A DNA stretch of 64,000 nucleotides from Parelaphostrongylus tenuis (lineage: Eukaryota > Nematoda > Chromadorea > Rhabditida > Metastrongylidae). Positions 767-60,231 of the stretch are shown here, piece after piece. The stretch covers positions 124,001 to 188,000 of the forward strand of contig JAHQIW010002239.1 of the NCBI GenBank assembly GCA_019055375.1, written 5' to 3'. Both the position numbers and the translations under genes were made by a program. Under the pieces are notes generated by a model. It made no database searches. It was not told where the DNA came from and was given only the letters and a program-made list of their open reading frames with translations. The stretch's first letter is position 1. Every line of letters starts with the position of its first letter.

Positions 767-3700
767 GCGATAACGTGGAATTCCTCCCTGCGGTTTATAG
801 TTGGATTGGTAATGTCAACCCAAAGTACTTCCAAATTTTTCGCGGTAATGTTTTTTGTTTTTGCGCAAGGATGGTGACTTTGATCTCAAAATCAGCTCCT
901 GTTAATAGTTAACGTTTTGCAAGTTTCATCCCAGTAATGAATGATGCAGTGTGTGGAAGTTGGATTTTACTCATTCCAAACATGTTGTAGTTCTAAAAAC
1001 TAAGAACATAATAACATTTTATTCCTTCTGCAAGCGAATGATAAATTGAAAGCACCGTCAGCGTTGTAAGATCATGAGACCTGTCATGAATTTATAATGA
1101 GTATGACTGAAGCTGGATGAGGAGCTCCGTATTTTAACACCCTTGTGCCGTCTTGTTCAAATTGCTGAGTGTCGAATAGTTTCGCCTCATCATTCTCCCT
1201 GCGTTTCATTTACGATACGCAACTTCCTTCAACATGTTGCTGAATCAAGTAAAAGAATTTCAACCAGTGCTTGTGCAAAATTGTCTTAGAGATAATCATG
1301 TGAAATGAGATGCTTTACTGCGCTAATACGTATGCGTAACTATGAATTCATTTGATAGTTTTTCTAACCACAGTGGCAATTAATTTTGAAAATTTACGGT
1401 TTGGTATGAGCTAGGTTTTCTAATTAATCACTAGAGAATATATGTTACTGTGAAGATTTAGCTGATTCCCTTAATCGAAGCACTCAAGAAAAATGACGAA
1501 CTGAATTGTCGAGATGTACTGGCTTCCTCTTCTCCAGGTAGTATTAAATGTCCGCCTAATTACAGGGATGGACATCTATTATATCGATTTACCTGTGGAA
1601 AAAAACTATTCTACTTTTAATTCTAACCTAAATCAAACAGAGATTGTGTTGCCCTCTCTGTGATGTCGAGTCACTTAGGTATGATTAGAGTCGTGCATAA
1701 AAGTTAGAAGCTAGGCCACTACTTTACATGTACTGTGTATCACTCTATTCAATTCGTCTCGATGTACCGGCTGCGAAGGTCAACATTGCGTGAAGGACAA
1801 GTGCTCTAGGCTCTGCAGGTGAATGGATGTGGCTTCAAGGAGGATGGAACCGTCGTATAGCCAAGATAAAGATTCAAAACAGCATGTGTAAATCTATCAA
1901 TAGAACAAGTTATTGATGGCCATATCGAAGGATAAAAGCGAGTATGAACGCCTTTTGTTCTTATGTATATGGCGGATTACGAATACACATAGTGTCTGTA
2001 AATGCGATATTCAAAGCTCATCGAAGCCATTTTCGAGTCCTTCCCCCTTTTTAGTACTCATTGTGTGAGTCGAATAACAGAGCGACGATCCCAAAAAATT
2101 TCAAAACGTTTCCGAGTGCTAAAAAGCGAGTCACATTAAGCGTCATACAAAGCACAGATTTTTAACATATCACGTGTGATAACGAGAATTCACCTAATCG
2201 AAAGCAATGTATTATGTTTATCTGCATATGAGTAGCGAACTTAAAGACACGTCAGCACTGTTTGGTCATCGAAAATATGCGGTTTTTAATGCGCTGTAAA
2301 TATGGTTGAGTAACCGTTTCCATGTCCTCAAATTACGATTGCTGAGCGGCGAGCAGTTTCGCAAACATTCACTTTCCGCTTCCAGTGCAAAATTTTGTTT
2401 TCAAGAAATATCGGGGAAAAGCATCACTGTTGTCTTTTTATAAACTAAGTTAATCAACGATTTTTCATGCAGCTTCTTATTGCAGGAGCAGCAGCAACAC
2501 GACGGCCATTCTAATGTAGCAAACGTGGACATGCTTTGCAATGTCATGAATATTGTGGAGATTATTTCCATTTAGTTTGGGTGCCTAATAGTATTTTCTC
2601 AGAAGATCATAATCATGCAAATTTTTATAATCATCTGTGTCAACCTCACACAGTATCTTTTTATACGACGTTTTAAAGTGAGTGTCCACCCATACTTCAC
2701 TGTGGTGAAAGAGATCTTTACCCCGATTTAACGATGATTATTTGCACCAAGATTTGATAAAACTGATTTTTTTCACAGGCATTTTTATGCTTATCGCTTG
2801 ACTATTATCTAAAGTCGGGCCCGCCATCAATTGTGTAGACGGACCAACAATAAGAGCATAATTGACCCATAAGATCGACTGTTTTCAAAACCTCGCAATA
2901 AACATTCAAAATAATTCCAAAAAGAATGTTTAAAGCCTAAACAAGGTTGGTACGTCAGGGCCATACACCCGTGAAGGGCTTAATGTGAGGTGGGGGTCAC
3001 TGACGAAGAGGCCGAAACCTCTGAAACACCGGTGTATGGCCCCGACGTACCAACATCGTTTAGCCTTTAGACATTCTTTTTTGGAATTATTTTGAATGTT
3101 CATTGCGATATTTTAAAAACAGTCGATTTTATGAGTCAATTATGCTCTTATTGTTGGTCCGTCTACACAATTGTTGACGGCCGGACTTTAGATAATAGTC
3201 AAGTGATAAGCATAAAAATGTCTGTGAAAAAAATCAGTTATATCAAATCTTGATGCAAATAATCGTCGTTTGATTAGGGTAAAGATCTCTTTCACCACAG
3301 TGAAGTACGGGTGGACACTCACTTTATAACGTCGTTTAGAAAGGTGCCGTGTAAGGTTGACACAAATTCTTATGAAAATTTGTATGGTTATGATCTTCTG
3401 TGAAAATACTATTACCCAAAGCTAAATGGAAGTAATTTTCTCAATGCATAGAATTGCAAGGCATGTCTACGTTTGCTACATGAGAATAGCCGTCGTGTTG
3501 CTGCTGCTCCTGCAATAAGAAGTTGCTTGAAGAATCGTTAATTGCCTTCGTTTATAAAAGGACAACAATGATGTTTTTTTCCACAATATTTGCTGAAAAC
3601 AAAATATTACATTAGAAGCAGAAAGTGAATGTTTGCGAAACTGCTCGTTGCTTAGCAATCAAATTTTGAGGACACGGAGATGGTTACTCAGCTATAATTA

Positions 3701-5605
3701 CAGTTCATTGAAAACCGCATATTTTCGATGACCAAACAGTACTGAAGGGTCTTTAAACTCGCAATTCATATGCAGATAAAACATGATACATTGTTTTCAA
3801 ATCGGTGAATTCTCCTTGACACACTTGACTTGTTAGGATTCTGTGTTTTGAATGACGCTTAATGTTACTCGCTTTTTAGCACTCGGAAACATTCTGAAAA
3901 CAATTTCTAATTCCCGATCAGTGAATCCTGGCTAAAGAAATTGAGTAACATACTAGAGACAAAAAAATCAAAATTCACAATCCTATATTCTACTGGTGAA
4001 ATTGCTGGACTACCAATGAGCAGTCACTTATGTAAGCGAACACTACGCCTGAGCGTTGGAGCAGACAAATCACAAAATGTGCCCGATTGATGTTCTGCGC
4101 AACACTTAGCGCATAGTCCAATCACAACGCGATATTCTATCCACTATTGAATTAGTTATCAGTAATTGATAACGAAAAGGATAAATAATTTATTGGGATC
4201 GTCGTTCTGTTATTCGATTCACACAATGAGTCTTAAAAAGCGGGAAGGACTCGAAAATGGCTTCAATGAGCTTTGAATATCGCGTTTGCAGTCACTATGT
4301 GTATTCGTAACCCAAAATATACATAGGAACAAACGACGTTCATATTCGCTTTTCATCCCTCGATGTGGGCAACCAGTAATTTGTTTTATTGATAGATTTA
4401 CACAGGCTGTTATAAATCTTTATTTTGCCTAAACCACGGTTTCGCCCCGGTTTCCACACAGTGTTGACCTTCGCAGCCGGTACATCGAGACGAATCGAAT
4501 AGAGTGAAACATGGTACAAATGAAGTAGTGCTCTAGCTCTAAACTTTTATGCACGTCCCTAATCATACCAAAGTGACTCGACACCACAGAGAATACAACA
4601 CAATCTCTGTTTGATTTAGGTTAGAATTGGAAATAGAGTGGTTTTTTTCCAGCAGGTAAATCAATAAGGTAGATGTCCATCCCTGTTATTGGAAGGGCGT
4701 TTAATACTACCTGGCGAAGAGGAAGCTAGTGCATCTCGACAATTCAGTTCGTTATTTTTCCTGAGTGCTTCGATTAAAGGAATTGACTGAATCTTCCAAG
4801 TACTGTAAATTCTCCAGTGATTGATTAGAAATCCTAGCTCATACCAAACCGCAAATTTTCAAAATTAATTGCCATTGTAATTAGAAAAACTATCAAATGA
4901 ATACAGCATAGTAACTCATACGTATTAGCAAAGTAGACCATCTCATTTCACATGATTCTCTCCAAGACAATTTTGCACAAGCAGTGGTTGAAATTCTTTT
5001 ACTTGATTCAGCAACGTGTTGAAGGAAGTTGCGTATCGTAATTGAACTGCAGGGAGAATGATGAGGCGAAACTATTCGGCTTTCGACAATCTAAAGAAAA
5101 CGGCACAAGGTGGTTAAAATACGGAAATGTTCATCCAGGTCTTACCATTACTCATAACAAAATCATGACAGGTCTCATGATCTTACAACGCTGACGGTGC
5201 TTTCAATTTATCATTCGCTTGCAGACGGAATAAAATGTTATTATGTTCTTAGTTCTAGAACTCCAACATGTTTGGAATGAGTAAAGTCCAACTTTTACAC
5301 ACTGTATCATTCATTATTGGAATGAAGCTTGCAAAACGAAACCAAGACAAGCGAGTATTCGTTCAATATGCGTTCTTAGTGAAGATTTCCTCAATATCTG
5401 ACATTGAAACCATGGCATAATGCACAGCGATTTCATGAACTGGCGAACGAGTTCTCCTATTAGCCACTAATAGGAGTTGATTTTGAGATCATAGTCACCA
5501 TGCTTGCGCAAGAACAAAAAACATCAGCGCGAAAAATTTTGGAAGCACTTTGGATTAACATCACCATTCCAACTATAAACCGCAGGGAGGAATGCCTCGT
5601 TATTA
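767..5605. repeat. ~4.8 kb imperfect palindrome with PLE-derived arms
   Basis: The left arm (about 767-2971) is the reverse complement of the right arm (about 3029-5605), with scattered differences and a ~130-base stretch near 5340-5475 found only on the right. Landmarks pair outward from the centre: 2945-2971 with 3029-3060, about 2815-2900 with 3110-3190, about 2490-2530 with 3476-3510, about 781-905 with 5480-5600. The inner part of each arm encodes a decayed PLE reverse transcriptase motif of the type INCVDGPT (plus strand near 2830, minus strand near 3160). The outer right end encodes a GIY-YIG tail. The ~57-base spacer contains the hammerhead described separately. A large part of the right arm (about 3140-4130) recurs as a direct repeat at 63,040-64,000. 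Confidence 0.85.
2993..3043 (+). ncRNA. Hammerhead ribozyme at palindrome centre
   Basis: Every element of the hammerhead consensus is present. Stem I is 2993-2999 (GGGGTCA) with 3037-3043 (TGGCCCC), seven pairs including one G-U. Core CTGACGA is 3000-3006. Stem II is AGAGG (3007-3011) with CCTCT (3018-3022) around a six-base loop. GAA is 3023-3025. Stem III is ACAC (3026-3029) with GTGT (3032-3035) around a CG loop. The cleavage-site base is A3036, so cleavage is predicted between 3036 and 3037. The 3' product would begin just inside the right palindrome arm. A competing hairpin between 2945-2965 and 3037-3058 could mask it. Activity is inferred, not shown. Confidence 0.85.
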
Positions 5606-5640: not shown

Positions 5641-5935
5641 TGACGGGTAGGGTGCATTACGAGCCTATGTGATGTCCTTCCGGTGATCTCTACTTGAATC
5701 ATTCAGTAAAACACTCATGGAAAGCGGTGAGTATAATGTGACTTGATTTTGTGCTTGACGCGATTGAAATTCAGGTCTGGTATTTTTTTCTAAAGGATTA
5801 GTGGAGGAGTCTGACTAACTGGCTTGTAGACAAATTGACCTTCACAGGTTCTGAAGAAAGCGAACCGGCGAAACGTCAACTGTCAAATAAATATTAATGT
5901 AAGACCTCGTGTTTGACTCAATGAAAAAAATCAGG
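5641..5935 (+). repeat. PLE terminal repeat (type B) with HHR-like motif
   Basis: Non-coding repeat following a PLE coding tail; it recurs at about 12,270-12,560 and in part at 20,240-20,345. It carries the motif CTGAAGA...GAAACGTC at 5851-5878, flanked by GGTT and AACT that can form a short stem I. The arrangement resembles the minimal hammerheads reported in PLE terminal repeats. Here stem II is weak and stem III is only A-U around CG, so this copy is probably inactive alone. Confidence 0.5.
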
Positions 5936-7189
5936 ACAAACAGGAGTGTTGAAAATGACTAAATCCAAATCCGCGCAGCTCGTTTCTTGTACATGTCGGG
6001 ATTATAGCATCAAAGCACTTTTATATGTAAATGTTTTTGGGTTATTTCAAAATCCTAAAAATAAGTACTGAAAAGACCACTTCCGATTGAAACACTTGGA
6101 GCAATACAGGCGACAGTTTCAAAACATTTGCAGAGATAAGACAAACCATTGAAGACTGCAATTGCTGCACTAGCGGAATAACACATTACTGTGCGAAATG
6201 TACAGCAAACGCAACAACAAATTTTGTTCTATATTCAGATCACGGTACTAAATTATAAAGAATGTTTTGGGGCACTTTAATAAGCATGAGATAGCTTAGA
6301 TGCATATCATGGGAATATTACAGCTTCTTACGTGGGATTTCCTCAGTGAAGGCATAGATATTATTTGTCTTTATATTCCCATTGTTACAAACCTCTGCCA
6401 TGTCTAATGATACACTCGAACTTTGTGTTTTATGGCGTCATTATTAGAGAAAGGGTATTTCACAGCGACCTGCAGTCGATGAAATCAATGAAGTTTAAAG
6501 GAAGTCACAGCAAGCAAATCTGGCAAATCTCTTGCTGGACGATGGTTTTCACGCTTTAGTGTCGATGATCTTGACCTCGAAGATAAACTCGTTCACGACG
6601 TCTAACAAAGTTGAACAACGAATATTTGATTTCTGACTTGGAAGATGAACCGTCGTTAATTGCTCGCCCATTGGCAACTTCGACCACATACGGAACTTGG
6701 CAGACCGGTGGCAAGAGTCGTAGAAAACGACGGCTCTTATCTTAAAGAATAGCTATTATCGTATTTGTTTATAATTCGTGCAAAATTTTTCAATTTTTGC
6801 AAGAGTCACAAAATTTTCTTATCAATCTATCAATGGGTATGAAATAGACGATGCCTAACAAACCTTCACCATGGTGAGAAGTTTGGAAAAGTTTAGGAGG
6901 ATCATTAAGTTAGTCTCAGCTCAGTCTCGTGCCTGTGGTGTTCTTGAAAACATCCACTATAGTTTATCGTTCCACCTTCAACAATTCCATTAGAGTGTAG
7001 CATTCTTGTAGCTTAACCAGGACCTGATGCCATAGTGTAGTTGCCTTTTCTGCAACAAATTCTGTCATGGATGCCTCTTTTCATCCTCCACATTGGGACT
7101 TTTAGTGTAACCTCACTCCACGCCTTTTTCTAAATATTTCAGAAATACTAAAGTTTAGGTTGCTTCGATTTGAGTGTTCTATCAAGACC
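5936..7189 (+). other. Intergenic, with possible mariner fossil near 6500-6590
   Basis: No convincing gene is seen. At about 6500-6590 the plus strand reads RWFSRFSVDDLDLEDK, which resembles the N-terminal helix-turn-helix segment of mariner transposases (a WF..F..GDFDLEDKPR pattern). It is one short isolated stretch with stops on both sides and no terminal repeats were identified. The rest of the interval shows nothing recognisable. Confidence 0.3.
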
Positions 7190-7830
7190 ACGCTCAATTT
7201 TTAGACCCAGTAATCACTTTTTAAGTCAAGCATGTGGTCTTTTGAAGGGAAACTCATAGAGCCCGGTACACGAGTTTCGGCCTTGACATCCTAACCAGTC
7301 AGTCAGCACCCTTTATGTTTATTTTAGTCGATGCTCTCGGAGGAACCCAGCCCCTATTCAGTGTTGATGCAGACAAACTCTTACACTTTACAAGTGAAGA
7401 TATCATTGAATGGACAGTGCTTTACACTCGATTGTTCTTGATTCGTAGCGTTAAATATATGATATCTTTCCTTTCGAGTGTTTTTTGAGACCCGCTCAAA
7501 TTTCATTATGCCTGATATTCCTTTTCTGAGGCATGTATGTGGTCATTGGAAATAATTATCAGACATATTGAAATTTGAGTGTGACCATAAGGAACGACAC
7601 TCGGAACGAAAAGTATAAGATATTCAACGATACTAGCCAAGAGAAGTCGAGTATAAAACATGCCCAATCAGTGATATTTTCACTTAATGGGAAGTGTTTA
7701 AAGTTTGTCTGCACCAACTCTATATGGAAGATGGGTTCTACCAAGGTGAGCGGGTAAAGAAAAAGGGTACTTTTCGACTGACGAGGCTGTCGAGGCCGAA
7801 ATACGAGTGCAGGGCTCTATAAGCTCGTGT
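7190..7830. mobile_element. Inverted pair of decayed HHR foldback elements (U1, U2)
   Basis: Two diverged copies of the family seen at 19,255-19,600 and 22,426-22,774 lie head to head. U1 (minus, about 7190-7480) keeps the 3' half of the hammerhead: reverse complement of 7261-7282 reads GGCCGAAACTCGTGTACC, but its CTGANGA core is altered (CTGACTG). U2 (plus, about 7520-7830) has a good CTGACGA core at 7777-7783 and a stem II of GGCT/GGCC, but stem III and the cleavage-site base are mutated (GAAATACGAGTGC). Both share the flanking TGTGGTC and GGGCTCTAT(A/G)AG signature. Confidence 0.65.
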
Positions 7831-8527
7831 TGTTACTCGCCAGCCGTCACGCTTGAATTAGACCACCCCCATGGACGACTACCGCGAGAAGGAGGAACGA
7901 GTGGTAAATGTGCTGAAGTCCGCACAATTTATGAAGACGGACCGCCAAAGTATCCAAGTATTCAGCAAAATCATGTTTTAGCTTTGCTTTCAATCGATAT
8001 CTCAGTGAACAAAGGATTGTTGATAGAGGTACTTCATTTATGGAGTTAGTAAAAACATCAAAGTTGATCAAATGCAATTCTTGATAACCGACGGCATTTT
8101 TTTCTGTTAAAAACTATCTATCTTTAGAACAACCGGGATTTCATGCCGTAGTATCACAAATGAGAAGGAGGAACCAATTGCATGCTGTAGCACCTGATGA
8201 ATCGGCGTATTCACTCAATCCTCTGTTCAAGTGGTCTCTTCCATGCAGCTCATGCAGTTCAACACCATTACACTTTATTAACCAATTCCGTTTGCAGTTC
8301 GGAATAGCATAATCTTTTACGTAAATCATGAAAGTTTGTGCTTTCAATTGAAAGAGTTGTGAGAGCTCGAAGCTTTAATAAGATCGAAGGACTTCCAAAA
8401 AAACCAGAAGCGCTGAGTGTCAAAATTGTTGTTGCCTTGTAAATGATCTGGTGATGAAAAATTTGCCTTCGCCTGAGTTTGGTAGACTTCATTGTTTTCT
8501 AGGAGACAAAAAGAAATTCGTACAAAC
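7831..8527 (+). promoter_or_regulatory. Upstream region of gene copy 1
   Basis: No other gene is seen. A pyrimidine-rich TTGTTTTCTAG at 8492-8502 ends 25 bases before the ATG at 8528. It could be a spliced-leader trans-splicing acceptor, as is common in nematodes. That is inference only, and no TATA-like promoter was assigned. Confidence 0.25.
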
Positions 8528-12560: not shown

Positions 12561-13808
12561 TTCAAGGTTAATAGATAGATGGTCTAGGGAATAGCAAATT
12601 AACTTTCAACTTTACTACAAGAACAACAAAAATTCCTTGCAGCGCGCACTATCACCTTCACTGCCACCGGCTTCACTTTGCCTGTAGCCATGGCTTACAC
12701 AGAATTGCCCACAGTTCCTGTTAAATCGCCTACTATCGCAACAAGCGAAGCGGGAGCTAAAGCATTTGTAGAGCGTCTTGTAATGCAGACTGTGAGTTTC
12801 TAACTTTCAGATTCTAAATCTCCAACATGAATTCTGAAAACATGCAAGAAGCGAGTTTCAATTTTTTGACAGTTCGTGAGCTTTCTATTACTCATGCCTT
12901 ACATAGTTCTTATGATTAAGTTGAAGATACTTTCATATAGATCTACCAACTAGTGAAAAAACTTGTCCTACAGGTTTTCAACGTTCTTGAGAGTCAAGGT
13001 CGTAAAGCACTCCTACCTAATGCTGTGATCTCAACGATTTTCGGTCAACTTAGCGTTTGGACCAACTACAAACCAATGAGATACAACATGGTTCTTAGTC
13101 CTACCTATATGCGTGGGTCTTCAGTGCTAGACAGCCACTTGAAAGACTGCAAGCTGAAATATAAAAAAGAGAGCAGGGAATGTTTTCATTAAACTCAAAT
13201 CTGGATGAATATTCTTCAGTTTTATCAAAAAGCTTCTTAGAAATATAGTGAAAATTATCACCATGGCACTGAAATCAAGGCTTTCAAGTCGATGCTACTT
13301 TTTTGAGCGAGCTTTTCCATTTCTTTTGTTGAGAATGTACAGCATTAAATATGTTAATGACGATTTGAAAAGTTTTGAAGATCAGAAGAAAGTTTGCGCT
13401 CAAAACTACCGGTTTTCTATAGTCAAGGAAACGTGTTTTTTAGCACAGATAGTTTTTTGCAGTTATGATGGCGGATTCACCGAGCTGCATTACCGTCGAC
13501 AACACGGTAACAGGAATTTGCGATGTAGCACAGAGAAACCAGGCATGTACGACAACAGTACCGCACACCGGTGACAATACAGCCTGTTCCCAACACATAC
13601 CTGACAATATTAGGTTTTCCCTCGGTTACAATTGCTTTCTTCTTTGTAGATACTTGCTTTGCGGAAGAAATCTATTCAGACTACAAATATCATCATGGCA
13701 AATTGGTCGAAAGCGATGTGGCAGACTGTAGTGAACAGAGCGGTTCAAATGCTGGCATGGGGCCCATTTGGATCGCACTTCTTTTCGGTATTTGCAACTG
13801 TCAAATGA

Positions 13809-19254: not shown

Positions 19255-19600
19255 ACAATACCTCTCATTAAATCCTTTCATTATTATTTAAGACAACTTG
19301 GCATGTGGTCTGGTAAGGGCTCTTGTACAGCTCGATACACGTGTTTCGTCCTTACAGACTCATCAGTCGGGCAGAACCTGTCGTCTTTCGATATTTTTGA
19401 AGTCAGTTCTCTCGGGAGCTCTGCTCCCTTACATAGAGTTATCGAAGACGTACGTTTTACACTCTATTTCAAGCGAAATTTTCACCTAACACAGAGTGTT
19501 TTCGCACTCGATTGCTAGCTGGCTGGTTTTTTTTTATCATATTATACCTTTCCTTCGAGCGCTTGATTAAGACCACGCTCAAATTTCAATAATCCCACCT
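19255..19600 (-). mobile_element. HHR-bearing foldback element U3
   Basis: Minus-strand copy of the family best seen at 22,426-22,774. Shared blocks in order are an end sequence CCTTTCATTATTATTT, CATGTGGTCTGGTAAGGGC, CGATACACGTGTTTCG, the CGTACGTTTTACACTCTAT block, and the AAGACCACGCTCAAATTTC outer end. It carries a canonical hammerhead (19,330-19,372). It is inverted relative to U4, with 2.8 kb between them that includes a PLE reverse transcriptase fragment. Confidence 0.75.
19330..19372 (-). ncRNA. Hammerhead ribozyme in element U3
   Basis: Minus strand: stem I GCCCGA (19,372-19,367) with TCGAGC (19,335-19,330), five pairs and one C-A mismatch. Core CTGATGA is 19,366-19,360. Stem II is GTCT/GGAC around GTAA. 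Then GAAA and the self-complementary ACACGTGT as stem III, with A17 at 19,336. Cleavage is predicted between 19,336 and 19,335. All invariant core bases are present. Confidence 0.8.
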
Positions 19601-21573
19601 CTCCACATAAAAAGGGATCGACGACGAAACGACTAACAATTGTACGGCAGTAAAGTGATAATGAAGTTTTTCTACCTCACGACAGTGTGGTGGTCTCCTT
19701 TACAGGACATCGGCTGAACCGAAATACACGGTGCAACCATATATAGTGATCAGGAACTCGTGTCTTTCACCATATAAGTGCTATAGCAGGTCTCATAAAA
19801 AGCTCAAAATATGTTATCAGGTTAATCTATGTATCTAAAACCGTGAAGATATCGTTGTAACCTATGCCAATGTACATCGGCGCTGATTTTGAATGTTCCA
19901 CATTTTCTTTTTCTCAGTTGCTTGCTCTTGAGGCATAACTTGCACTGCCCTCATATTCCAACCTCTTGCAATAAATTCAAAGTGACCACTTGTAGGTGGT
20001 TGTGGCCATCCATCAGTGTATTTCAGACCAGGTTCGCTCAGGTGCTTCTTGTGGATATCATCCTCCACTTTTCTGTCTGGATACATGAACTTCTTTGATT
20101 TCTATAAATTATCTAAATTAATATATGCGGGCACGAATGAAATATTTTCTGCTATGGAAGAGTTCTGAGAAAAAATCTACAGTAGTCTTCAAAGAAGCCA
20201 GTATATACTGCATATTTCTTGTTTGCTTATCAGTGACTCAGAATTCACTGTCTCCAGAGATGGTCGATTGAGAGATTGTTGGTCAATTTGACCTTCCGAA
20301 ACTGCGAAAAAGGAGAAATCTACGAAACTCCAACAAATATTCCTTTATTGGACCCAATCACATAGGAGGAGACAGATAAAAAAGTCTAAGAGTGGTCAAT
20401 GAAATGTGTTGTTGTCCAGAATTTTGTCCCACTATTTGATAACTGTGAAAGGCGTTTAGGGACGTAAGGTTTGAGTGCAAAAAACGAATCAATTTCTGCC
20501 AAATGTATATACCCGATGATTGGTAGTCCGATCGCAGAAGGAACATCTACATCTCATCAAATGATGAGTCGAAAAGACGGTTTCAATATTAAAAGATCGG
20601 TAGCAAGAATGTGCAGTGAGAATTGGAAGTATGTTGATCTCTAAAATTGTCGTTTTCCTCTCTGAAATACGCTTTGCTAGGACTTATTGCGTCCTTCTAA
20701 CTGAAAATACTTAAGGAATCTCCTCAGGAGCATGCCTATCCAGGAGCAAACAAAAGAGAAACAAAGCTCTGTAGCGGAATCTCCATCTCTCCAGTTATTG
20801 AATGACTACAGAAAGATTAGTGAAAGAAAAGGGAAGTACTGCTTTTTAAATGCAGGATGCATAGCTTTGAAGCAACAAGGGTGACTAATCGACCGCTATA
20901 ATGTATGATCAAAGCTAAATATTTATTGACTGATGTCGATTATATAAGCTGTTGATTGCTGAATATTTTGAGCAGGATCAGTGTCATCAGTGAGACGTTT
21001 CGAAAGTTTGGGTGAAAAAATCCTTTTTTTCAAAGATGTACTCCACAAAATGATAAATGCTAACTCTATATAGGCTTACAGTGGCTACAGAGTGAAAATC
21101 GTACGTGTAAAATACACTCATTTTCAAAAGCAATACGTTATATGGATGCGTGTAGTTTTTGAATTGCTCTCTTATAATATTATTGAAGGGAATGTGAAAA
21201 AAAAGACAAAAGGCACTTGCTACTGATCAGGCCAGAAGGTCGAAATTTACGTAAACCACCAAAAGTACCATATCAGACTGCATGAGAAGCTTGAAATATG
21301 CTGCCAAACTGTACACAGTTCTAAGCGAGGTCCTAAAAAAGTTAAGTATAAAGGTAAGTAAAGAGTAAGAAATGCCTTGATACGAAACACGCTTTTATAT
21401 TGAGAGGAAAGGATTCTTAGAAAAACGCTTGTGAAATCCTTTTTAGTAGTAATTTATCTTCCTTTAGCAGCAAAGTTTCAATAGAATGGCAAGTCCACCA
21501 AATAACTTCCAGCAAATCGTACTGTGATGTGCAAAGACGGGCTATCTATACCAATAACTAACATTATTTTCTT
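19601..21573. other. Region between inverted foldbacks, with HHR fossil
   Basis: No gene is seen. A partial PLE type B terminal repeat lies at about 20,240-20,345 (GGTCAATTTGACCTTCC, then a decayed HHR-like GAAATCTACGAAACTCC). At 21,217-21,262 a fossil of another hammerhead type is present: TTGCTA, CTGATCA (the core G8 is changed to C), stem II GGCC/GGTC, GAAA. It is followed by CCATATCAGACTG..., a block also found after the fossils at 27.9 and 53.7 kb. Confidence 0.45.
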
Positions 21574-22190: not shown

Positions 22191-22425
22191 CATTCCAAAC
22201 ACTTCGTAATTTGCATGTTCTGACTCTTTGATCAAGCCGACCATACGACCCGATAAAATTCGGCCAGGTGATCGCAATCGCCTACTGAAGGACCTATTTC
22301 ATTTATCTTGATTTGTTCATGTGTTTTACATTGGTGTATTTTATTTCTTTCTGTTTAATTACTCCCATTTCTGCTCCATTACATCAAACCAGGAAGAGAG
22401 TAGGAGATTTATTCAATAGTGATGC

Positions 22426-22774
22426 TTTCAATATGCCTGATAATCATTATTTGAGCCACGAATGTCAGTGAAAATGAAATGTCTCGAAATGAAAGATATG
22501 TTATATTAAATATACTAGCCACGAGCATTCGAGTATACAACACTCTGTGTTTGGTGAGTTCTTCACTGGACATAGAGTGTAAAACGTACGTCGTCGCTAA
22601 CTCTTATTCTGGGGACTGGAGCACCCGCAGAGATTAGCAAAAGACGAGAAAGGGCAACTGCCCGACTGACGAGATCGCAAGATCGAAACACGTGTATCGG
22701 GCTCTATAAGTCAGCCCTCATTAACAGACCACTGACATGCGTGGCTCAAATAATGATTATCAGGCATATTGAAA
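22426..22774 (+). mobile_element. HHR-bearing foldback element U4 with 34-base inverted ends
   Basis: The ends 22,426-22,459 and 22,741-22,774 are perfect inverted repeats of 34 bases (TTTCAATATGCC... inward). The element is 349 bases with no protein-coding capacity. Inside are CATAGAGTGTAAAACGTACG, a canonical hammerhead (22,660-22,702) and GGGCTCTATAAG. Its size and ends are MITE-like, but an internal self-cleaving ribozyme is not a usual MITE feature. Related copies: 7190-7830 (two), 19,255-19,600 and 59,810-60,000. Confidence 0.85.
22660..22702 (+). ncRNA. Hammerhead ribozyme in element U4
   Basis: Perfect consensus. Stem I is GCCCGA (22,660-22,665) with TCGGGC (22,697-22,702), six Watson-Crick pairs. 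Core CTGACGA is 22,666-22,672. Stem II is GATC/GATC (22,673-22,676, 22,681-22,684) capped by a GCAA tetraloop. GAAA is 22,685-22,688. Stem III is ACAC/GTGT (22,688-22,695), and A22696 is the cleavage-site base. Compared with U3, stem II differs in sequence on both strands but still pairs, so base pairing is conserved. Confidence 0.88.
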
Positions 22775-24363
22775 TTTGAGCTGTGGTCTTAAGAAAACTC
22801 TCGAAATGAATGATAAGTGATGCTTTTCTTTTTCTATTGGATATATTATAGCCCATTTTTGTGTTATTTTATGTATTTTACTCGAACTTCATCTAATTAT
22901 TTTATTCTGTTTCATTTATTTTTATCATCTTCGTGCTACAGGATCAATCTACAAACAGTATATGTTGTTTATTGATTACAAATTTAGACTGGTTCCTGTT
23001 TTTCATTTCTTATCGTTCTCACTTTCTTACTCCCCTAGGACTATTGTTTGATTTTCTGTCTTGTCGTCTAGGGGAAGATTAGACAAAATTAATGCAGAAC
23101 TGTTGACGAGAGATATCTACTACGAAAAGTTTTCAAAGGCATAGTATTAGATGTGGCCAAAATTTAACAACTTTCACAGTTCCTTCGTATACCAAAACTC
23201 GAAGTCGATTAACTGACGCAACAGCTGGCATTTTTGCGATTTCGCTTTCCCCAGAACCTCGAAAAATCTGGTTTCCCGCATCCGTGTCAGTCCAATTCAA
23301 GTACTTCACTATGGAAAAATCGGCAAGCGTTCCAGCGCAAAACAGCTTTTAACCTAACACCTCTTTTGTATGTTCGCCATTGAGTTGTTGAAGAAGAAAC
23401 CACTGGAGTGAATTCACATAAATACGTAATGCATCTCTCTTACCAAATTAAAAAATCTTATAGCAAGTTTCAAAACCGACTGTTGCTTAACCTCGACATC
23501 CTTGATTGACTTCTTTTTTCCTTAGTGAGCTCAGGACGAGCTTTTATAGCACTAATGCCTCATTTCTGTTAGACGAGTACAAATGAATATTCGGTCCAAC
23601 TTGCTGGAGAAGGATTTCTTATAAGAATGTCAGTATTTATTCTAAAGCTTCAATCTTTGGCTAGCGCCCTAAGTGTCTGTCCTCCGAAAAAACTCTTTTG
23701 CATTGCTGTAGCATTCAAATTAAATATGTTTCACACATGCCACGCTCTTTCATGTCTGTCACGCGAGTAATTCTCTAGAAGCACGAAAAGCGTATTATCG
23801 TGTAGAGAAAACCTCATAGTATCTGTGCAAATTGTTTTCCTTGGGCTTTCTCTGAAGGCGGAAGAAAAACTCTCAACTGGATAGTAAGTTGCACCCTATA
23901 TCTCTAAGCCGTTAGGTCATCGATCCATCTCCCCACCTCCTGCTCGTAGTCACTAAACAGTCCGCCCTTTATGTGAAAATCAATCACGTTTTCCCTGCTA
24001 TTTTGAAGTAAAACCATTTTTCTCAGAAAGTAAGCACAGCTTTGGATACTGAAATTGCGCGATCGAATGATCACTAAGAGTTTAAAGAAAGAGCTCTGTA
24101 TGGCGAGGTGTTAGACACAAATGGTTTCTTCCTCCTGCAGAGGTATCAAAAGAGCAGAATTAGTAATCATTTGAAAGACGAGACTTTATGCTATAGCTCC
24201 CCGTCACAGGTTTTTAAGAGAATTTTTTTGGCGTTGCTACAGGAGGAGATTTCTTGCGTTGCGGACACACATATTTCTAGCCGGAAAAAGCTCTCTCTTT
24301 GAACAGTTGCTAATCAATCATTCAATAGCTTAATCGAATTTGATGCCAAAGCTGTGCCTTCAC
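22775..24363. other. Intergenic, no gene recognised
   Basis: AT-rich sequence with a CTCGAAATGAATGATAAG stretch at 22,798 that repeats one from inside U4 (22,477). I see no convincing coding region, RNA gene or repeat in the remainder. Confidence 0.3.
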
Positions 24364-24942: not shown

Positions 24943-25732
24943 GCGGGCATAGTTGCTTAGTTCGAAATCACAAGTTTCCTAAAATTTTATTATCGAGCCA
25001 CCAACCAAAGAATGAGATACCTCGCAGCCAATCTGGCCCGCATACTTTTAGAATGTTTGACTGCTAATATTAAATCTATTCGCGCAATCGCTTCAAGCGA
25101 TAACTATTCATATAGGAGTTAAATCCAATGGACGAAAGCCGTACTCTTGAAGGCAACACCTTATTCATAGAGGATGAAAGCAGTCGACATGAGAAATGTA
25201 CATGGCCACATTACCATTTGATTTGGTGGCGCTATTCAGTATTGTTGGATTGTAGCTAAACTAGCTCAAATGTCTGACTCTCTTTGAAAATCGGCATGAG
25301 TAACAAATTGTAAGATTTCCTGCGGTGTACTCTTTTTTTTGATTGAAACTTGGGCGAAGTTAGAGCCTTTCTTTCCTAACAATTTGATGGTTAAGATTTC
25401 GACAACGGCGCCATCGGCAGAGTCTAGACGTACATATCATACCATATTTGATTACTGGGGTAATTTTTCATCTGGCATCAAGTATCCAACAGAAAACATT
25501 TTAGCAAGTACTCATTTTGAAAGCCCTACCTTATTTAAACTTGCATGTGAGAGGTCATCGGTCTTATGTGGCGCACTTCCAAAAATGAACCATACTCACA
25601 CCAGAAGATGGATCTGAAATAGGTGCCATACCAATTGTTATGTCCACGCGTTCCGCCGTTCTATTCATCTTAGGAATAGATATATACCCAGTGTTATAGA
25701 GTGATGTACAAAACATTAGCGCCAGGCGGGAT
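24943..25732. other. Intergenic, one unrecognised 92-codon frame
   Basis: A plus-strand frame at 25,339-25,617 has no recognisable motif, signal peptide or family. Nothing else is seen in the interval. Confidence 0.15.
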
Positions 25733-25807
25733 TAAAACCCGAACCTCACTCCTTCAGGGAACGCATGCTCTATCCGTTACACTATTGACGCTCATTTTGC
25801 CATCGCT
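25733..25807 (-). repeat. tRNA-like repeat
   Basis: On the minus strand a tRNA-sized stretch has an A-box-like TGTAACGGATAGAGCATG, a B-box-like GGTTTTAATCC, and ends (AGCGTCA, TGGCGCT) that partly pair like an acceptor stem. It is probably a tRNA-derived SINE head or tRNA pseudogene; the anticodon arm is not convincing. Confidence 0.45.
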
Positions 25808-29089: not shown

Positions 29090-30420
29090 AGATCCATTAC
29101 CCAGATCAAAGCCATGGTGCTGAAACCATGCTCCAAGGCCTGGCTGGAAGTGCTGACGAAGACACTGGTAACGAATCAGACGCAAGCATGGATAAAACGT
29201 GCACACTTCACAAGGTTCTAAAGATGACGTTGACGGAACTGACGATGCACAAGGAGCTCTTTTGAATGTTGACATTGTAGTCGGTGATTGGACCAACAAC
29301 GTGCAGCCACCCACCGTCCTGCCCTTTCATGACCCAGCGGCAGGGTAGCAACACAGTTTTGTTATTAAGTGCCAGTAACCAGCTCATTTCTACAAACTGC
29401 TCATGGCCGATCTTTAGGAATTGATCATAGAGCAGACATGAATATCTATGGCACTCAGAAGAACGCTGATTCTGAGGATGCCATTGTGGAAGAAATGAAG
29501 ACATTCATAGATTTGTGTGTGTAAATGAGTATTGTGAAGCTGTCACACCTGAATAATAATTGAAACAGTCATCAGTCTGTTAGCAAACCTTTTTTGCTAG
29601 TGTATTTTATGCCTAGACGTAGATTTCTGAAGATTCTGAGGAATTTGCATTTTGCCGATGACTTCAACTGGGATGGAAAGAACAGACTACACAAAATCAC
29701 AAGGCTCCTACAGCTTGTCGATAGGAACTGCCAAGCTGCAATATAGACATGGGAAGAATGTATGCATAGACAAATCAATGGTACCCTTCAAACGAAAAAT
29801 CGTTTTTCGACATTACAACTTTCCAAGCGAGAAGCACAGATACTGGATACTATTCAATCCATACTATTTCATAATTATACTATTCAAACTGCGTAGTTTA
29901 GGAGGATACACGTATAACACAATCCCATACGCAGGTGCAGGCGCAATTCCCACGCGCGTAGGACGAATTGCAGAGAGTAATGTGATGGACCTAATGGTAG
30001 GCTTCTTAGACGAAGGCCAACACGTCTACACTGACAGTTGGTACACTAGTGTTGAACTTGATGGTGAGTGCATTGTGCTGCGATATTGCTTCGCAATATC
30101 TAAATTCACAGTTCACCTACATCCGCCTGTTCTTCCACCTGATGACGCACATTTGCTCAATGAACGCGTGGAAAATTTACAAAGAGTGCGTGAAGAAAAT
30201 TTCGTTCACCAATCTCAAGGTGGAAGTTTATCTCAAATACTTACAAAATCATGTCGCTCCGCAGCCGACACCCGGGCGTCTTCTTGAAGTCAATTTGCCA
30301 CGTTGTCGACGTTGTATTGGATGTTACAGAAAATTGGTATTACGTGTATGTACTGCATGTACTCGAAACGAAACTAAACGAGTAAGTATGAGGTGCAGTC
30401 AATCTAATCAGCACCTTTAA
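29090..30420 (+). pseudogene. piggyBac-type transposase pseudogene
   Basis: Segments in family order: an acidic N-terminal part (DEDTGNESDASMDK), a second piece with stops (EEMKTFIDLC), RRRFLKILRNLHFADDFNWD followed by KNRLHKITRLLQLVDRN (from 29,609), then after a frameshift NVCIDKSMVPFK (first catalytic Asp), SLGGYTYNTIPYAG and NVMDLMVGFLDEGQHVYTDS (second catalytic Asp). About 150 residues including the third catalytic Asp appear deleted. The C-terminal end is RLFFHLMTHICSMNAWKIYK, then a Cys-rich domain (CRRCIGCYRK, VCTACTRN, MRC) ending at 30,420. Transposition function is lost. Terminal repeats and TTAA target sites were not identified. Confidence 0.8.
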
Positions 30421-33689: not shown

Positions 33690-35985
33690 TCAAAAGTTCG
33701 AATTTCTATAAACCTCGGCATAATTAATTGTTATATGAAGATCGAGAAAGCTTATCTTGATTAACTGACGTGAGGTTGGTAAATTAATCGTAGAAGTTCG
33801 GCTGACGTTTCGGCGACCCGCCTTCTTCAGAGCCTGGGCGTATGTAGTATTAGTGTATCTGAATGATTCGGATGGTCTTATTTATATGCTGCCTAGGTCG
33901 AGATAGAACATCAAACGAAGAAAGGGCGCGAGATCTCGTGTGATGGTGACGCACTCGTCCTTCCGGTTCATTTCGGGATTTTGGGCGTTTATCCAAAATG
34001 CCTCAAGTGTCTTGCGCGTGGATGTTTTTGATTCCTGCGCTAGGATTGTGACAATCACATCAAAATTGTTCTTGTTGTGCTTATGTGCCCTATGTAAACC
34101 TAAAGGTTTCGTTTTATCTATTTTAGATTTACTCTCTAGATGCTCTTTTATGCCGATGAAAAGTGGTCTACCCGTTCCTCCTATATATTCTTCCCCGCAT
34201 GTTTTACATCTTAGTAAATAAATTGTGCCCGATCTCATACAATCCCCTCTTTTCCGTTAGAGCAGATCATATGGTTTTTGGTGTTGCACAATCGATCATA
34301 AAGTCTATTGCGGATCAGCTGATGGCGTAGGGTGGGAGGTGGGATTTCAGTAACTACCACGGAATTTTCAAGACCGCATCTTTTTAGACACCTTTTAACC
34401 GCGCTACTAATTTCATTTGATATAAATGACAGTTTGAAGGGAACTTTATTCAGGTGCGGAGTATTGTTCTTTCGGGACCTAATTCCACTTTTTGAATATT
34501 CCCAAGTAGCAGATGTTTTGTAGCCGTTAGAATGGCAATTTTTTGTGTCAAGTCTAATGATTCGTTCCTTTCCCTTTCTCCTGTGCACACATTTTTAGCC
34601 GTTCGAAACATGTTTTTGATTAGCGATTTTTTCATGTGTGAAGGATGAGAGAAAAGGTGACTGACCAGATTGTTTTTGTTGCTTGGTTTTCGATACCATT
34701 TTGTACTATAGCCACTATCCAAAAGCTTTACTTGGATGTTTAAGAATGGAAGCCAGCTCCCGTTTGGACTTTCTCGCGTAAAGTTTACATGCTCTGACTG
34801 TCCGTTCATGACTTCAAAACATTTGTCCATTTCCTCTTGTGTGGAACAGACAATGAAGCAATCGTCTATATACCGGCAGTAGAGAAATGGGCGGTGAACG
34901 AGAACTGGAGCTTCCACCTTATACATAAAAGCGATGGCAAGACTAGGTGCTAAACGTTGACCCATGGCTAACCCCCTGAGTTGTGTAAAGTATTTTCCGA
35001 CCACCGGGAGATTGAACAACTAAGACATTGTTTTAGGAGGGTCATTAGTTGTTGAATTGTGAAGCCATATATATTTACTTTTTGATTATTTTTAGTCAAA
35101 AGTTCGAAAATGGCTTGCATTGCAGAGTCATTTGATACGTTTGTATAGTGTGAGGTGACATCAAATGACTCCATTACGTGCGAGTTGTTTGATTTCGCGC
35201 AACGTAGATGTTACAGGAACATTTGGGTACTGGGTAGATGGGTTGGTATGAATTTGAGCACCTGAGTAAAAATAAGGTCTAGAAACCACGTTATTCTATC
35301 CGTTGGTCCGTCTATACAACTGATGATAGGTCTAAACTTGTACGTTGATGGATCGGTTGACACTAGATCATCAATAGATGTAAGTTTATGTGCTTTTATG
35401 AGAAAGTATAGGAACGGACAAATAGGATTATTGTTCTTGAGTCCAGAGATAACTGAAGTTTCCAAACCCGCTGCACTTGCCGTGTTGACCCAATCTTTGT
35501 TTAGATTTTTACATTGAAGTTTATATTCCTTCTCAGAGGATGCGCGATAGAGGGAGACATCCTAAAGATGTTTCTCCGTCATTTCGACATCCACCTGATT
35601 TGGAATTACTACGAATTCCCCACCTTTATCACTTACGGATAGACGAATAATTTTTGATCTTACGAGCTCCTTGATTTGCGACAAACTTTGTTTTTGTTTG
35701 TGTGTCAGATTGGAGCTTATCTTTCTATGCCGAAAGTGGTTGAGTATTTGCAGAACTTTGTTCGAAAAAACGCGAAAAATAGGGTCGAGTTCGCTATTTG
35801 GTTTTTCTTCTTTGTAAAAAGTTTGTGGGAAGGGAATGGGTGGTAGTGTCCCTGCTTGTTTTTCGTTACCTGACCCTTCTAATCTAGCCTTGTAGCGCCT
35901 TTTACAGTCGTAAAATTTGGATAAGGATGGATCTGACGTTCCACCGCGTCTCCCGTCCCAAATCCGGCTAATTTATCGGTGAACA
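33690..35985 (-). pseudogene. Best-preserved PLE copy (RT + GIY-YIG), broken by few lesions
   Basis: Minus strand: N-terminal IRLSVSDKGGEFVVIP; RT fingers CPFLYFLIKAHKL and CIDGPTDRITW; MESFDVTSHYTNVSNDSAMQ; YGFTIQQLMTLLKQCLSCSI; LRGLAMGQRLAPSLAIAF; an intact YIDD at 34,872-34,861; FLNIQVKLLDSGYSTKWYRK; linker LRHQLIRNRLYDRLCNT; then GTIYLLRCKTCGEEYIGGTG with TIY and YIG present; tail TLEAFWINAQNP and KDECVTITRDLAPFL. The enzyme would copy RNA at nicked or telomeric ends. Here TAG near 35,565, TAA near 35,210 and frameshifts near 35,020, 34,450 and 34,240 break it. The 3' terminal repeat (33,690-33,880) holds an HHR-like motif. Confidence 0.88.
33800..33834 (-). ncRNA. Minimal hammerhead-like motif with best stem II
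   Basis: Minus strand: stem I GGCT/AGCC; CTGAAGA; one extra A; stem II GGCG/CGCC with a GGT loop; GAAA; CGTC. Stem II is a perfect four-pair helix, better than in the copies at 26,060 or 8,962. The one-pair stem III and the extra A are the departures from the strict consensus. Confidence 0.5.
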
Positions 35986-45044: not shown

Positions 45045-47480
45045 GTAAACAACTTATGCAAACGGTCTAGGGCCTACCTATGTTGTTAGCGCCAGGGTCA
45101 CGTATGAGCCCGCCCCCTCCCCCCATGACGAGGTCAAATTAACGATAGGTGTTACGTGTACCAAGGCTAGAAAATCAATATGAAATTGCGGGTTTCTGGA
45201 ATTTATCCGGGAAGCTTCAAGGGTTTTTCGCGCCAATCATTTCGATTCGTGCCCTAGGATTTTGACTAGTACCTCGAACTCGTCATCGTTGTGTCTTTGT
45301 ACCCTGTGTGTACGTAGAGGCTTACTTGAGTTTTTATTTGTTTTTCCGTCTAGGTGTTCTTTAATGAGAATGCAAAGTGGTCTGCCTGTTTCGCCACTGT
45401 ATTCGCCACCACATGTCTTACAAGAGATAAGGTATACTGTAGCTACGTTCATGCAGTCGAGGTCTCTGCCGTTGGGACAAATAACGTAGTCCTTTATTTA
45501 CTATTATAACTAAGAGAATTGAGTGGTGAACAAAAACACGGCCTCAGGCGGGAATCGAACCCACGTTTCATCCTATCCGGGGACGCGTGCTCTACCACTA
45601 CACCACTGAGGTACATTTGCCCGACCACTCATTCTTCAACATCTCAATGTTAGCTATCAGCCACCAACCTTTTACAGGTTTCGTCGGGTATGCGATTTCG
45701 CTTTATAAACCCAGTTGAGCTGGTAGCTATTTGTATTACATAACGGGTCATACAAGCGGTTTCGAACTAATTGACGGCGCAGTGTTTAAGGAGGAATTTC
45801 TACAATTTCTACAGAATCTTCTAGACCACTGGTTTTTAGACACTTTTTAATTACGGTACTGACTTTGTCTGTTACGAAAGGTAGTATAAGAGGTACCTTG
45901 TTGTTTAGGTGTGGCGCCCTGTCGTTCCCATTGCGAAGCTTTCCGCTCCTTTTGGGCCTAACGTTAGTTGTTGTTCTTTCTTAGTACCCATTAGAAATTA
46001 GAGAGAAAAAGTAAATATATGTCTAGTAATTCCCTTCTTTCACGTCTCTGGTACAGGCACCTACAGCTGTTCGATACATATTTCGGATAAGTGCTTTTTT
46101 AGTATGTGAGGGATGAGAAGAAATGTAATGGACCAAGACGTTTTCGTTACTAGCCTTGCGATACCATTTTGTATTGTAGCCACTTAATGAATTAAACTTG
46201 AACGTTCAAGAAGGGAAGACAGCTCTTTGAATGTTATTGTTCTCTCGGCAACTCAATAAACTCTGACTGTCCGTTCAGAATTTGGAAGCATTTATCCATC
46301 TCTTCTTGCGTAGAGCAGATGACGAAACAGTCATTTATATCGATAGTAGAGTGTTGAATGCCGATGAAGAACTGGAGCTTCCACTTTTGACACGAGAGCG
46401 ATGGCTAAGCTGGGTGCTAGTCTTTGCCCCATTGCCAACCCTCTACTTTGTTTGAAATATTTACGTGACCACCTAAATATCGAACAGCTTAGACGTGAGT
46501 TAAGGAATGTGATAAGCTGCTGGACAGACAAGCCAAACATATCTATGCTTTCTATGTTATCTATTAGTAATTCATGAGTGGCTTGTATTGCGACGTCACA
46601 TGAGACGTTTGTACAGAGCGCTGAATCATCAAACGACTCCATTATGAACATATGATTTGGACGCGCATTTTTAAGGCGCTCTAGGAATATATTGGTGTTA
46701 GAAGATGGGCTGGTATGAACTTTGATAACTGCAACAATATGAGGCCAGGAAACCATGTTATCCTATCTGTCGGCCGCCTACACAGCTAATGATTGCTCTA
46801 ACTTCGAACGTAGAGGGATCAGTAGACCCAAAATCATTAGGGGAAAGTCTATGTGTTAATGAGTGTTTAAAGGACAGGGAATGTTGGTGATTCAATGTTT
46901 AACTGACAGATAAAAGATTGTTGTAAGCCAGCAGCTTTTGCCGTTCTGACCCATTCTTCATTCAATTTTCACCATTGTGATTTATATTCCTTTTCAGAGG
47001 AACGTCGATAGAGAGAAGCGTCTTGGAGATGTTTCTCCGTTAATATCAACTTCAACTGACGGGAAATAACTACAAATTCCCCACCCAATCGCTAATAGAT
47101 AACCGGATGTTTTTTGAGTTTATCAGCTCTAGGACTTCTTTCAAGCCATGTTTTTGTTTTCTGGTTAGGTTTGAGCTGAACTTGTTTTGTCGGTAGCGAT
47201 TAAGTGCGTGGAAAAGTTTGTCCGAAAATGTACGGAAGATTGAGTCAATTTCGCTATCAGGTTGTTGCTGTTTGAAGGACGTTCGTGGAAAAGGAGGTGG
47301 TGGTAATGTTGCCTCTCTACGTTGTGCTAGAGTCAACCTTTCTTGTTTCGCTTCATAACGGAGTTGATCTAATACTTTAGGCAGATTACAAGCGGTAGCA
47401 CGCGGCGATGTTTTGGAAAAAGGGTTGAGCAGGGGAAAACTTGGCCCCAATTCTAATAATGATTGCGCACTATCCGTGAG
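45045..47480 (-). pseudogene. PLE copy interrupted by a SINE
   Basis: Minus strand: N-terminal VLDQLRYEAKQERLTLAQRR, PPPPFPRTSFKQQQPDSEID, SIFRTFSDKLFHALNRYRQN and RLSISDWVGNL; RT core MFIMESFDDSALCTNVSCDV, FGLSVQQLITFLNSRLSCSI, SRGLAMGQRLAPSLAIALVS. At the catalytic site the reading is LYYRYK-stop: a base is lost, and the first Asp codon would be AAT (Asn). Later come KWYRKASNENVL-type sequence, a linker, then a 250-base SINE (45,496-45,745), then GIY-YIG with CPNGRDLDCMNVATVYLISC and KTCGGEYSGETGRPL (YIG is YSG). A PLE terminal repeat fragment follows at 45,050-45,190. Confidence 0.85.
45496..45745 (-). mobile_element. tRNA-derived SINE nested in PLE
   Basis: It splits the PLE sequence CCTTTGTATTACATAGACGG, which is continuous at 9,322-9,345 (minus-strand view), and leaves imperfect duplicated TTTATT/TATTTG at the edges. 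On the minus strand the head is tRNA-like: A-box GTGGTGTAGTGGTAGAGC, a good B box GGTTCGATTCC near 45,556, and acceptor-like CCTCAG/CTGAGG. The tail (AACAAAAAC..TTCACCACTCAATTCTC) is shared with copies at 48,410-48,610 and in the 41-42 kb foldbacks. Confidence 0.75.
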
Positions 47481-59006: not shown

Positions 59007-59809
59007 ATCTGAACTGCGACGTGCTCAAGATAAACGCTTTCACGATCGATATTTGTTGCAACACTATAGTACAATAAACTGACAAATCACATGGCTGTTG
59101 AGTAGACAGAGTAACAAGGTAGATTACATTGAACTGCGCAATATGAAGCTGAATGGCCACTATAAATCCTCTTCTTCAGGATTAAATATTATTTTTCAGT
59201 TCTAAGAACCGAACTACAGAACGATTGTCTGAAGGAACCATATTCATTATGCCATTTTTCCCATGGGAAATATACACTGAACACTTGTGCATCGCATTGC
59301 AGTTCAATGGAGAAACGCGCTGAGTGGAATGTGTTGAAATACAACTACTCATCTCACAAATAGGAAGTTACAAAAAAAACTTTCCCCGTTTTTGATTCCA
59401 GCAAATGCCCCATGTTTGCCTCACTGCAATTACAAGAAACTAAATGGATCAGGAATGCGAAGACGAATATAGTAAGAGATTTAGAGTGGATAACTGGAAT
59501 GCATCTTCAGTGACAGCAATTTGAAGTGAACTTGTTTACGAGTAGGATGCTTCCTACATCCACTATAAAATTGGTTGACAAGATCAGGAATGAAAAATTT
59601 TTGAGTTCTGCGAAATACCGATCTTCAAGCGGATGTGGCGCATATTTCAAAAAAAAAAGATCTTGAAAGCGATAAATACAAAACTTTTACTTGTATAAGG
59701 CATTCTTGAAACTCATCATCTTTACGTCTGCCACGTTGAAAGTTGTAGTCGTGCATTTGATGACTCAGTACGTATTACATGCAGCAATCTCAAAACATTT
59801 ATCTCGAGT
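59007..59809. other. Intergenic, no gene recognised
   Basis: Downstream of gene copy 3. No coding region or repeat is identified. Confidence 0.3.
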
Positions 59810-60000
59810 GCTTTGTTAAGACCACGCTCAAATTTCAATATATCCTTTCATTATTTTTGAAGTCACCTTGTCATGTGGTTTGTAAGGGTAAGGGTAAGGG
59901 TAAGGGTGGGTAAGGGTAAGGGTAAGGGTAAGCTCGGGCTGTACAAGAGCCCTTACCAGACCACATGACAAGGTGGCTCAAATAATAATGAAAGGATCTC
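59810..60000. mobile_element. Foldback element U5 lacking the HHR
   Basis: Outer end TTAAGACCACGCTCAAATTT, then inverted arms of about 40 bases (about 59,843-59,885 and about 59,955-59,995; CCTTTCATTATT...TGTCATGTGGT). Between them is a GGGTAA array followed by GCTCGGGCTGTACAAGAGCC. It keeps both flanks of the U-family hammerhead region but not its core. Confidence 0.65.
59883..59932 (+). repeat. GGGTAA hexamer array
   Basis: About eight units of GGGTAA with one GGGTGGGTAA irregularity. The unit differs from the nematode telomere repeat (TTAGGC) and from TTAGGG. Four or more G-triplets in a row could form a G-quadruplex. It appears to be an expansion of the TAAGGGC phrase present at the same place in element U3. 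Confidence 0.8.
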
Positions 60001-60231
60001 AAAACTGTTTACATAGGATGTATTAGAATTATCGCCATCATTGCGTGAAAGTGATACAAAGCTATTAGTACTAGGACATTGATAAAAATTTTGGTTTTTA
60101 TTTGATACAATTTCTTGGAAAAATTTACGTATATTACAAATCCTAAATGGTGCTTTATAAGATGACAAATTTCTCATTCAGATTAATATCCAGGAAATTA
60201 AGGACACATATCGAAAAACTTCCCCAAAAGG
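60001..60231. other. Intergenic, no gene recognised
   Basis: Nothing identified. Confidence 0.25.

Follow-up and report, generated by a model that had tools for sequence, protein, structure and literature searches.

A short hammerhead-bearing element of the nematode Parelaphostrongylus tenuis fits the metazoan retrozymes and carries insertion scars like those of Penelope-like elements

What kind of element is the short non-coding sequence with inverted ends and a hammerhead motif found in this Parelaphostrongylus tenuis contig, and what copies it? The window, meaning the whole stretch of DNA analysed here, comprises 64,000 nucleotides (JAHQIW010002239.1, positions 124,001 to 188,000, assembly GCA_019055375.1). 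A sequence-only reading had described positions 22,426-22,774 as a MITE-like foldback element encoding a complete hammerhead ribozyme, and had suggested either a non-autonomous element mobilised by a Penelope-like element (PLE) or the terminal repeat of an uncharacterised PLE.

The complete hammerhead matches that description base for base. Hammerhead A, a type I motif at 22660..22702 on the plus strand identified by a motif descriptor scan with shuffles and folding, has stem I GCCCGA/TCGGGC, the core CTGACGA at 22,666, stem II GATC-GCAA-GATC, then GAAA and a palindromic stem III, ACACGTGT, with cleavage predicted at 22,696|22,697. Across the whole window the descriptor scan found three complete hammerheads (A, B and C), whereas the same descriptor gave 7 matches over 600 dinucleotide shuffles, or 0.012 per window, which rules out a chance hammerhead. 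The second hammerhead reported earlier in a related copy is present on the minus strand as hammerhead B, which has its core at 19,366, cleavage predicted at 19,336|19,335 and one mismatch in stem I. Hammerhead C (2990-3046, plus strand, core at 3,000, predicted cleavage 3036|3037) was absent from the earlier description; it lies midway in a palindrome whose arms are related to PLEs (within 770-5603). In the Rfam check proposed for these motifs, hammerhead A of the window was not called at the gathering score or at E values up to 10 and hammerhead B matched RF00163 at 22.4 bits, below the gathering score of 34.

Stem II varies by subfamily and still pairs, as GATC/GATC in A, GTCT/AGAC or GGAC in B and GGCT/GGCC in D; the compensation read earlier between A and B is real, and it recurs in copy D and in genomic copies. 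Across four aligned copies, 85.5% of pair cells are retained in the hammerhead plus two additional hairpins, compared with 30-41% after sliding, and 8 pairs have changed on both sides, a count drawn from few, related sequences. RNAalifold on four copies retains stems I and II and also draws non-hammerhead pairs in the core. For single units the hammerhead fold was compared with the minimum-energy fold, giving -19.2 versus -22.8 kcal/mol for A, -10.4 versus -16.4 kcal/mol for B and -16.6 versus -23.3 kcal/mol for C, while the best fold of a predicted A dimer is a double hammerhead (-53.5 versus 2 x -22.8 kcal/mol). Because stem III is a palindrome, a monomer could form a two-pair stem with a four-base loop. 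Ribozyme action of hammerheads A and B is given here as predicted.

The boundaries of the element around hammerhead A differ from those first read. An 11-bp direct repeat, AGTGATGCTTT, lies at 22418..22428 and at 22816..22826, and since duplications of at least 11 bp occur in 0.014% of random flank pairs (n=200,000), this repeat, with profile and unrolled-unit alignments, places insert A at 22,429-22,815 on the plus strand. Within it, a 42-nt antisense arm (22429..22470, minus strand, from a profile match at 22470-22426) has its 3′ end at the first of the two end sites defined below, and a sense arm of ~1.05 units (22471..22815, plus strand) crosses the unit end, continues into the beginning of another unit and has its 3′ end at the second site. 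The sense arm folds with a z score of -4.07 relative to shuffles. Insert A is thus a non-coding unit of ~317 bp lying head-to-head with a short inverted piece of itself. The 34-base perfect inverted ends seen earlier were close, as the inverted repeat spans 45 bp (22,426-22,470 and 22,730-22,774) and contains a single mismatch, but it is the duplication that sets the bounds of the insert, and the inverted ends are the junction of two arms and not the end of a MITE.

Further copies in the window were located by profile and alignments, with a unit profile derived from copies A, B, D and E. Insert B (19267..19596, minus strand, hammerhead core 19366) is a single arm of about one unit. The 7-bp repeat ACCTCTC beside it may be its duplication, although 1.8% of random flanks show a match of this length. 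Copies E (minus) and D (plus), placed by the profile and unrolled-unit alignments at 7166..7866, are head-to-head with decayed hammerheads, and around them no duplication was found, the best being 4 bp. Copy F (59797..59995) consists of head-to-head partial arms between 10-bp duplications, ATCTCAAAAC, at 59787-59796 and 59996-60005, and its sense arm begins at 59934, the first base past the predicted cleavage site. A GTAAGG-type microsatellite at 59882-59932 within copy F has perhaps grown from the unit's own CCCTTAC. Copy G (21185..21272, plus strand) is a remnant around the hammerhead detected by a profile match. The unit end is joined to the unit start without an intervening ORF in copies A, D, E and F. 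Elsewhere in the window, a fragment at 29640-30287 (plus strand) matches PF13843 (DDE_Tnp_1_7), which we take to be a piggyBac-type transposase. A tRNA above the Rfam gathering score lies at 45540-45612 and a weaker tRNA-like relative at 25718-25791, both on the minus strand, and repeated exon-like stretches at 12592, 52728 and 57178 (plus strand) belong to a protein family of unknown function with many P. tenuis relatives. One ORF of the window shares 98% identity, across 36% of its length, with a P. tenuis protein.

Genomic copies were sought in the window's own assembly of 481.5 Mb, with at least 228 matches for query A (from 40 scored among 3,481 candidates) and at least 114 for query B (from 40 scored among 5,365 candidates). 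The unit is mostly 315-320 bp long with a GC content of 0.41-0.42, and its longest stop-free stretch in doubled units is 67 codons for A and 94 codons for B; an ORF with RT and GIY-YIG endonuclease is absent from the doubled A and B units, and no LTR was seen in the element. In contig C3631, 13 or more units follow one another head-to-tail, and no ORF lies between units in the genomic arrays. At the loci searched, 45/52 A-type places and 28/45 B-type places retain the hammerhead core and stem III in full. Three patterns gave 0 matches against viral contigs, and a 16-base pattern gave 27 matches against prokaryote contigs.

The insertion signature was read from 30 loci per query. After four A-type rows (L035, L036, L043, L056) and four B-type rows (L065, L079, L084, L085) judged to duplicate another locus's insertion were dropped, as with L079, which shares its duplication and arm starts with L072, 26 A-type and 26 B-type inserts, 52 in total, were distinct. 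The layout is head-to-head in 24 A-type and 15 B-type inserts, single-arm in 2 and 10, respectively, and tail-to-tail in one B-type insert (L086), with arms ranging from 0.10 to at least 4.9 units. Counting u1 as the first base past the predicted cleavage site, 86 of 90 outer 3′ ends (A-type 48/50, B-type 38/40; L086 has no outer 3′ ends and is excluded from the 40) fall inside two windows, site 1 at u57-83 and site 2 at u103-138, which were fixed after both sets had been seen and cover about one fifth of the unit. Their centres lie about +67 and +115 nt past the position of predicted cleavage. When narrower windows were taken from the A-type set alone (u57-78 and u112-138), a hand count placed 32 of 40 B-type ends inside, and 6 of the 8 outside were at u106-110.

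Head-to-head inserts have one end at each site in 34 of 39 cases (A-type 21/24, B-type 13/15). The exceptions are L048, with both ends at site 1 and no duplication; L055, L063 and L069, each with one end elsewhere; and L030, which is cut by the locus. Duplications of 8-14 bp flank 31 of the 39 (A-type 21/24, B-type 10/15), and where the duplication is at least 8 bp the one-each rule holds in 21/21 A-type and 8/10 B-type inserts, with duplication-anchored medians of u68 and u119 (A) and u65.5 and u112 (B). Among single-arm inserts, duplications of at least 8 bp occur in 0/2 A-type and 3/10 B-type cases; at displaced boundaries, used as a control, their frequency is 0.7% for A-type and 0.9% for B-type. 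Head-to-head architecture, two end sites and duplications are observed properties of these insertions. At the other end of the arms, cDNA 5′ ends lie within 3 nt of the predicted cleavage site in 0/50 (A) and 3/44 (B) cases and within 8 nt in 2/50 (A) and 7/44 (B), so templates do not usually terminate at a cleaved end. The idea that cDNAs mostly stop at the cleavage site is weakened; copy F agrees with it to the base, but the 5′ ends of genomic copies seldom do. The frequent arms of 1.0-1.2 units might be taken as one turn of a circle, but this argument is weak since the search was biased towards near-complete units, and read-through is equally well explained by an uncut multimer.

Near-identical copies of the retrozyme coexist in the P. 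tenuis genome with intact-looking PLEs, which gave at least 150 matches scored among 11,049 candidates. An open frame of exactly 893 aa was found in 8 of the 150 PLE matches listed, and some of the PLEs among these matches are in tandem with a spacing of about 2,985 bp. One tandem carries the frame and a minimal hammerhead-like motif ~70 nt before the next start codon. All nine close opposite-strand PLE pairs among the 150 matches listed are head-to-head. Three of the nine (C240, C406, C1771) are fully resolved. Measured from the predicted cleavage site, their ends fall at +59 to +65 and +110 to +114, and the duplications are 10 bp in C240 and 12 bp in C406; in C1771 the right flank is the contig end. 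In C2112, C3665 and C3803 one end lies at +107 to +120, the other departs from the template at +53, and no duplication longer than 6 bp was found; C2158, C2201 and C1257 make up the nine, without resolved ends. The start regions of PLEs and retrozymes show little or no similarity in sequence (A-type, 15/1000 shuffles as good; B-type, 399/1000 shuffles as good). Retrozyme and PLE agree in the geometry from hammerhead to end sites. Within the window, the minimal motif CTGAAGA-AGGCG..GCC-GAAACGTC is found at 5851, 9945 and 54896 on the plus strand and at 33830, 26090 and 8993 on the minus strand, with one copy of the six degenerate. Several of these motifs lie directly downstream of PLE coding fragments, and the intact PLE tandem carries this motif too. 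RT matches were to strongylid nematodes.

Because the scars match Penelope-type insertions, Penelope-type machinery is indicated as the copier. The purified Anolis PLE cuts and extends both target strands, and its RT starts internally at two neighbouring sites, which delimit the genomic tail; insertion is unaffected by ribozyme mutants (PMC11167929). In our view this is very probably a non-autonomous retrozyme of ~315-320 bp without coding capacity, with a type I hammerhead and tandem or circular RNA units, copied in trans by the RT/endonuclease of a PLE. A multi-unit array would be transcribed, and the hammerhead could trim the RNA to monomers, perhaps closed into circles. The PLE protein would then recognise a stretch ~60-120 nt 3′ of the cleavage site, cut both target strands and prime one cDNA on each, as the head-to-head products suggest, one cDNA presumably starting from site 1 (~+67) and the other from site 2 (~+115). 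As the inserts show, both cDNAs run 5′-ward, often at least once round the unit, meet head-to-head and are joined, in most cases leaving a duplication of 8-14 bp. Insert ends at sites 1 and 2 are observed; we infer that each strand uses its own site, that a PLE protein is the enzyme and that the template is multimeric or circular. Against this mechanism, the one-each rule is unlike the Anolis PLE in vitro, whose start sites were alike on both strands, without strand difference (PMC11167929). The weak or absent similarity of the start regions, the scarcity of cDNA 5′ ends at the cleavage site, the exceptional inserts (those that break the one-each rule, the tail-to-tail L086 and the 12 single-arm ones) and the better non-hammerhead folds of the monomers also count against it.

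Other origins account less well for these scars. If the units were solo or truncated pLTRs of an autonomous PLE bearing this hammerhead, with no separate retrozyme, one would expect what PLE pLTRs also have, namely hammerheads, a head-to-head layout and a tail (PMC11167929, PMC3846280), and the hammerhead-to-end-site geometry is indeed similar. However, the PLE tail enters an ORF whereas the retrozyme tail enters its own unit body and the arrays are ORF-free, and the one PLE tandem read whole carries a different, minimal hammerhead motif. We regard this origin as very unlikely, and the related suggestion of a terminal repeat of an uncharacterised PLE is not supported, as the end of the unit leads directly into its beginning in an array of 13 or more units that lacks intervening ORFs.

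A retrozyme mobilised by a LINE-type element through twin priming is also unlikely. LINE twin priming can yield inversions, but L1 twin priming is expected to leave one fixed and one variable end, whereas the outer ends here lie at two fixed unit positions, one of each, and the matching pattern is found in PLEs of the same genome. Nematostella retrozyme repeats are reported with 15-bp duplications that were likened to LINEs, in the accessible part of one report (PMC4918200), which speaks for this route. As for a MITE or foldback DNA element with an incidental hammerhead, insert A does have inverted ends, but they are head-to-head copies of varying length (arms of 0.10 to at least 4.9 units), 12 of the 52 inserts are single-arm, the duplications range over 8-14 bp and units form head-to-tail arrays; neither the constant terminal inverted repeats nor the fixed-length duplication of a MITE is found, and the MITE-like label is almost certainly wrong. 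The earlier suggestion of a PLE-mobilised non-autonomous element is, by contrast, supported by the ends of the 52 distinct inserts together with PLE inserts of the same genome.

PLEs have been proposed as helpers of animal retrozymes from shared traits and co-occurrence, as far as the accessible text of these papers goes (PMC7229834, PMC7761336). That the scars match those of co-resident PLEs in their distances from the hammerhead is strong structural evidence for this unproven proposal. The retrozyme class itself is already known; the new part is the PLE-type insertion scar. The one-each rule suggests an asymmetry of PLE integration that is absent from the in vitro work (PMC11167929). We lean towards a broader view in which retrozymes would stand to PLEs as SINEs do to LINEs, exploiting the PLE protein through a kept hammerhead-to-start-site geometry, PLE integration would be asymmetric with its own start site for each target strand, and the template would often be circular or an uncut multimer. 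The work also adds a nematode to the retrozyme hosts, and its genome offers a setting for testing the PLE-retrozyme link.

As to class, the element fits the metazoan non-LTR retrozymes, a known kind (Cervera and de la Pena 2020, PMC7229834, as described in its accessible part). Its unit lies within 150-450 bp, bears a type I hammerhead, occurs in tandem, has a GC content under 50% and no coding capacity, and is flanked by duplications of more than 4 bp. The earlier statement that no such class is known in nematodes thus stands in part: the retrozyme class fits, and no nematode retrozyme was recognised in literature searches of open papers, which is no proof of absence. The accessible text of PMC7229834 likewise describes non-coding units of 170-400 nt that carry a type I hammerhead, are found in tandem and contain less than 50% GC, with duplications exceeding 4 bp, coexisting PLEs and, for invertebrate hammerheads, a two-pair stem III with a tetraloop. 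The present element differs in its nematode host, in being known from genome sequence, with cleavage and circles predicted, and in its mostly head-to-head layout with two fixed 3′ ends, which were not met in that text. Schistosome hammerhead repeats, or W-elements, also come from a parasitic worm, are short, transcribed and tandemly repeated, and in some cases carry type I hammerheads, but their host is a flatworm and PLE-type ends were not met in the accessible part of that account (PMC8490949). Plant LTR retrozymes share the non-autonomous, hammerhead-bearing character but, in the accessible text, have type III hammerheads in LTRs, units of ~700 bp and 4-bp duplications (PMC4918200). PLEs share the head-to-head or inverted layout, the hammerhead upstream of the start sites, a tail that may be present at one end and is delimited by two starts of RT, and duplications of about 8-13 bp (PMC11167929, PMC3846280). 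Unlike PLEs, the element has no RT/endonuclease ORF, its tail enters the unit itself, and its hammerhead is larger with a palindromic stem III. The PLE-like combination of head-to-head arms, a tail at one end and a short duplication is nevertheless seen in these inserts (34/39), as in the PLE controls (3/9 resolved).
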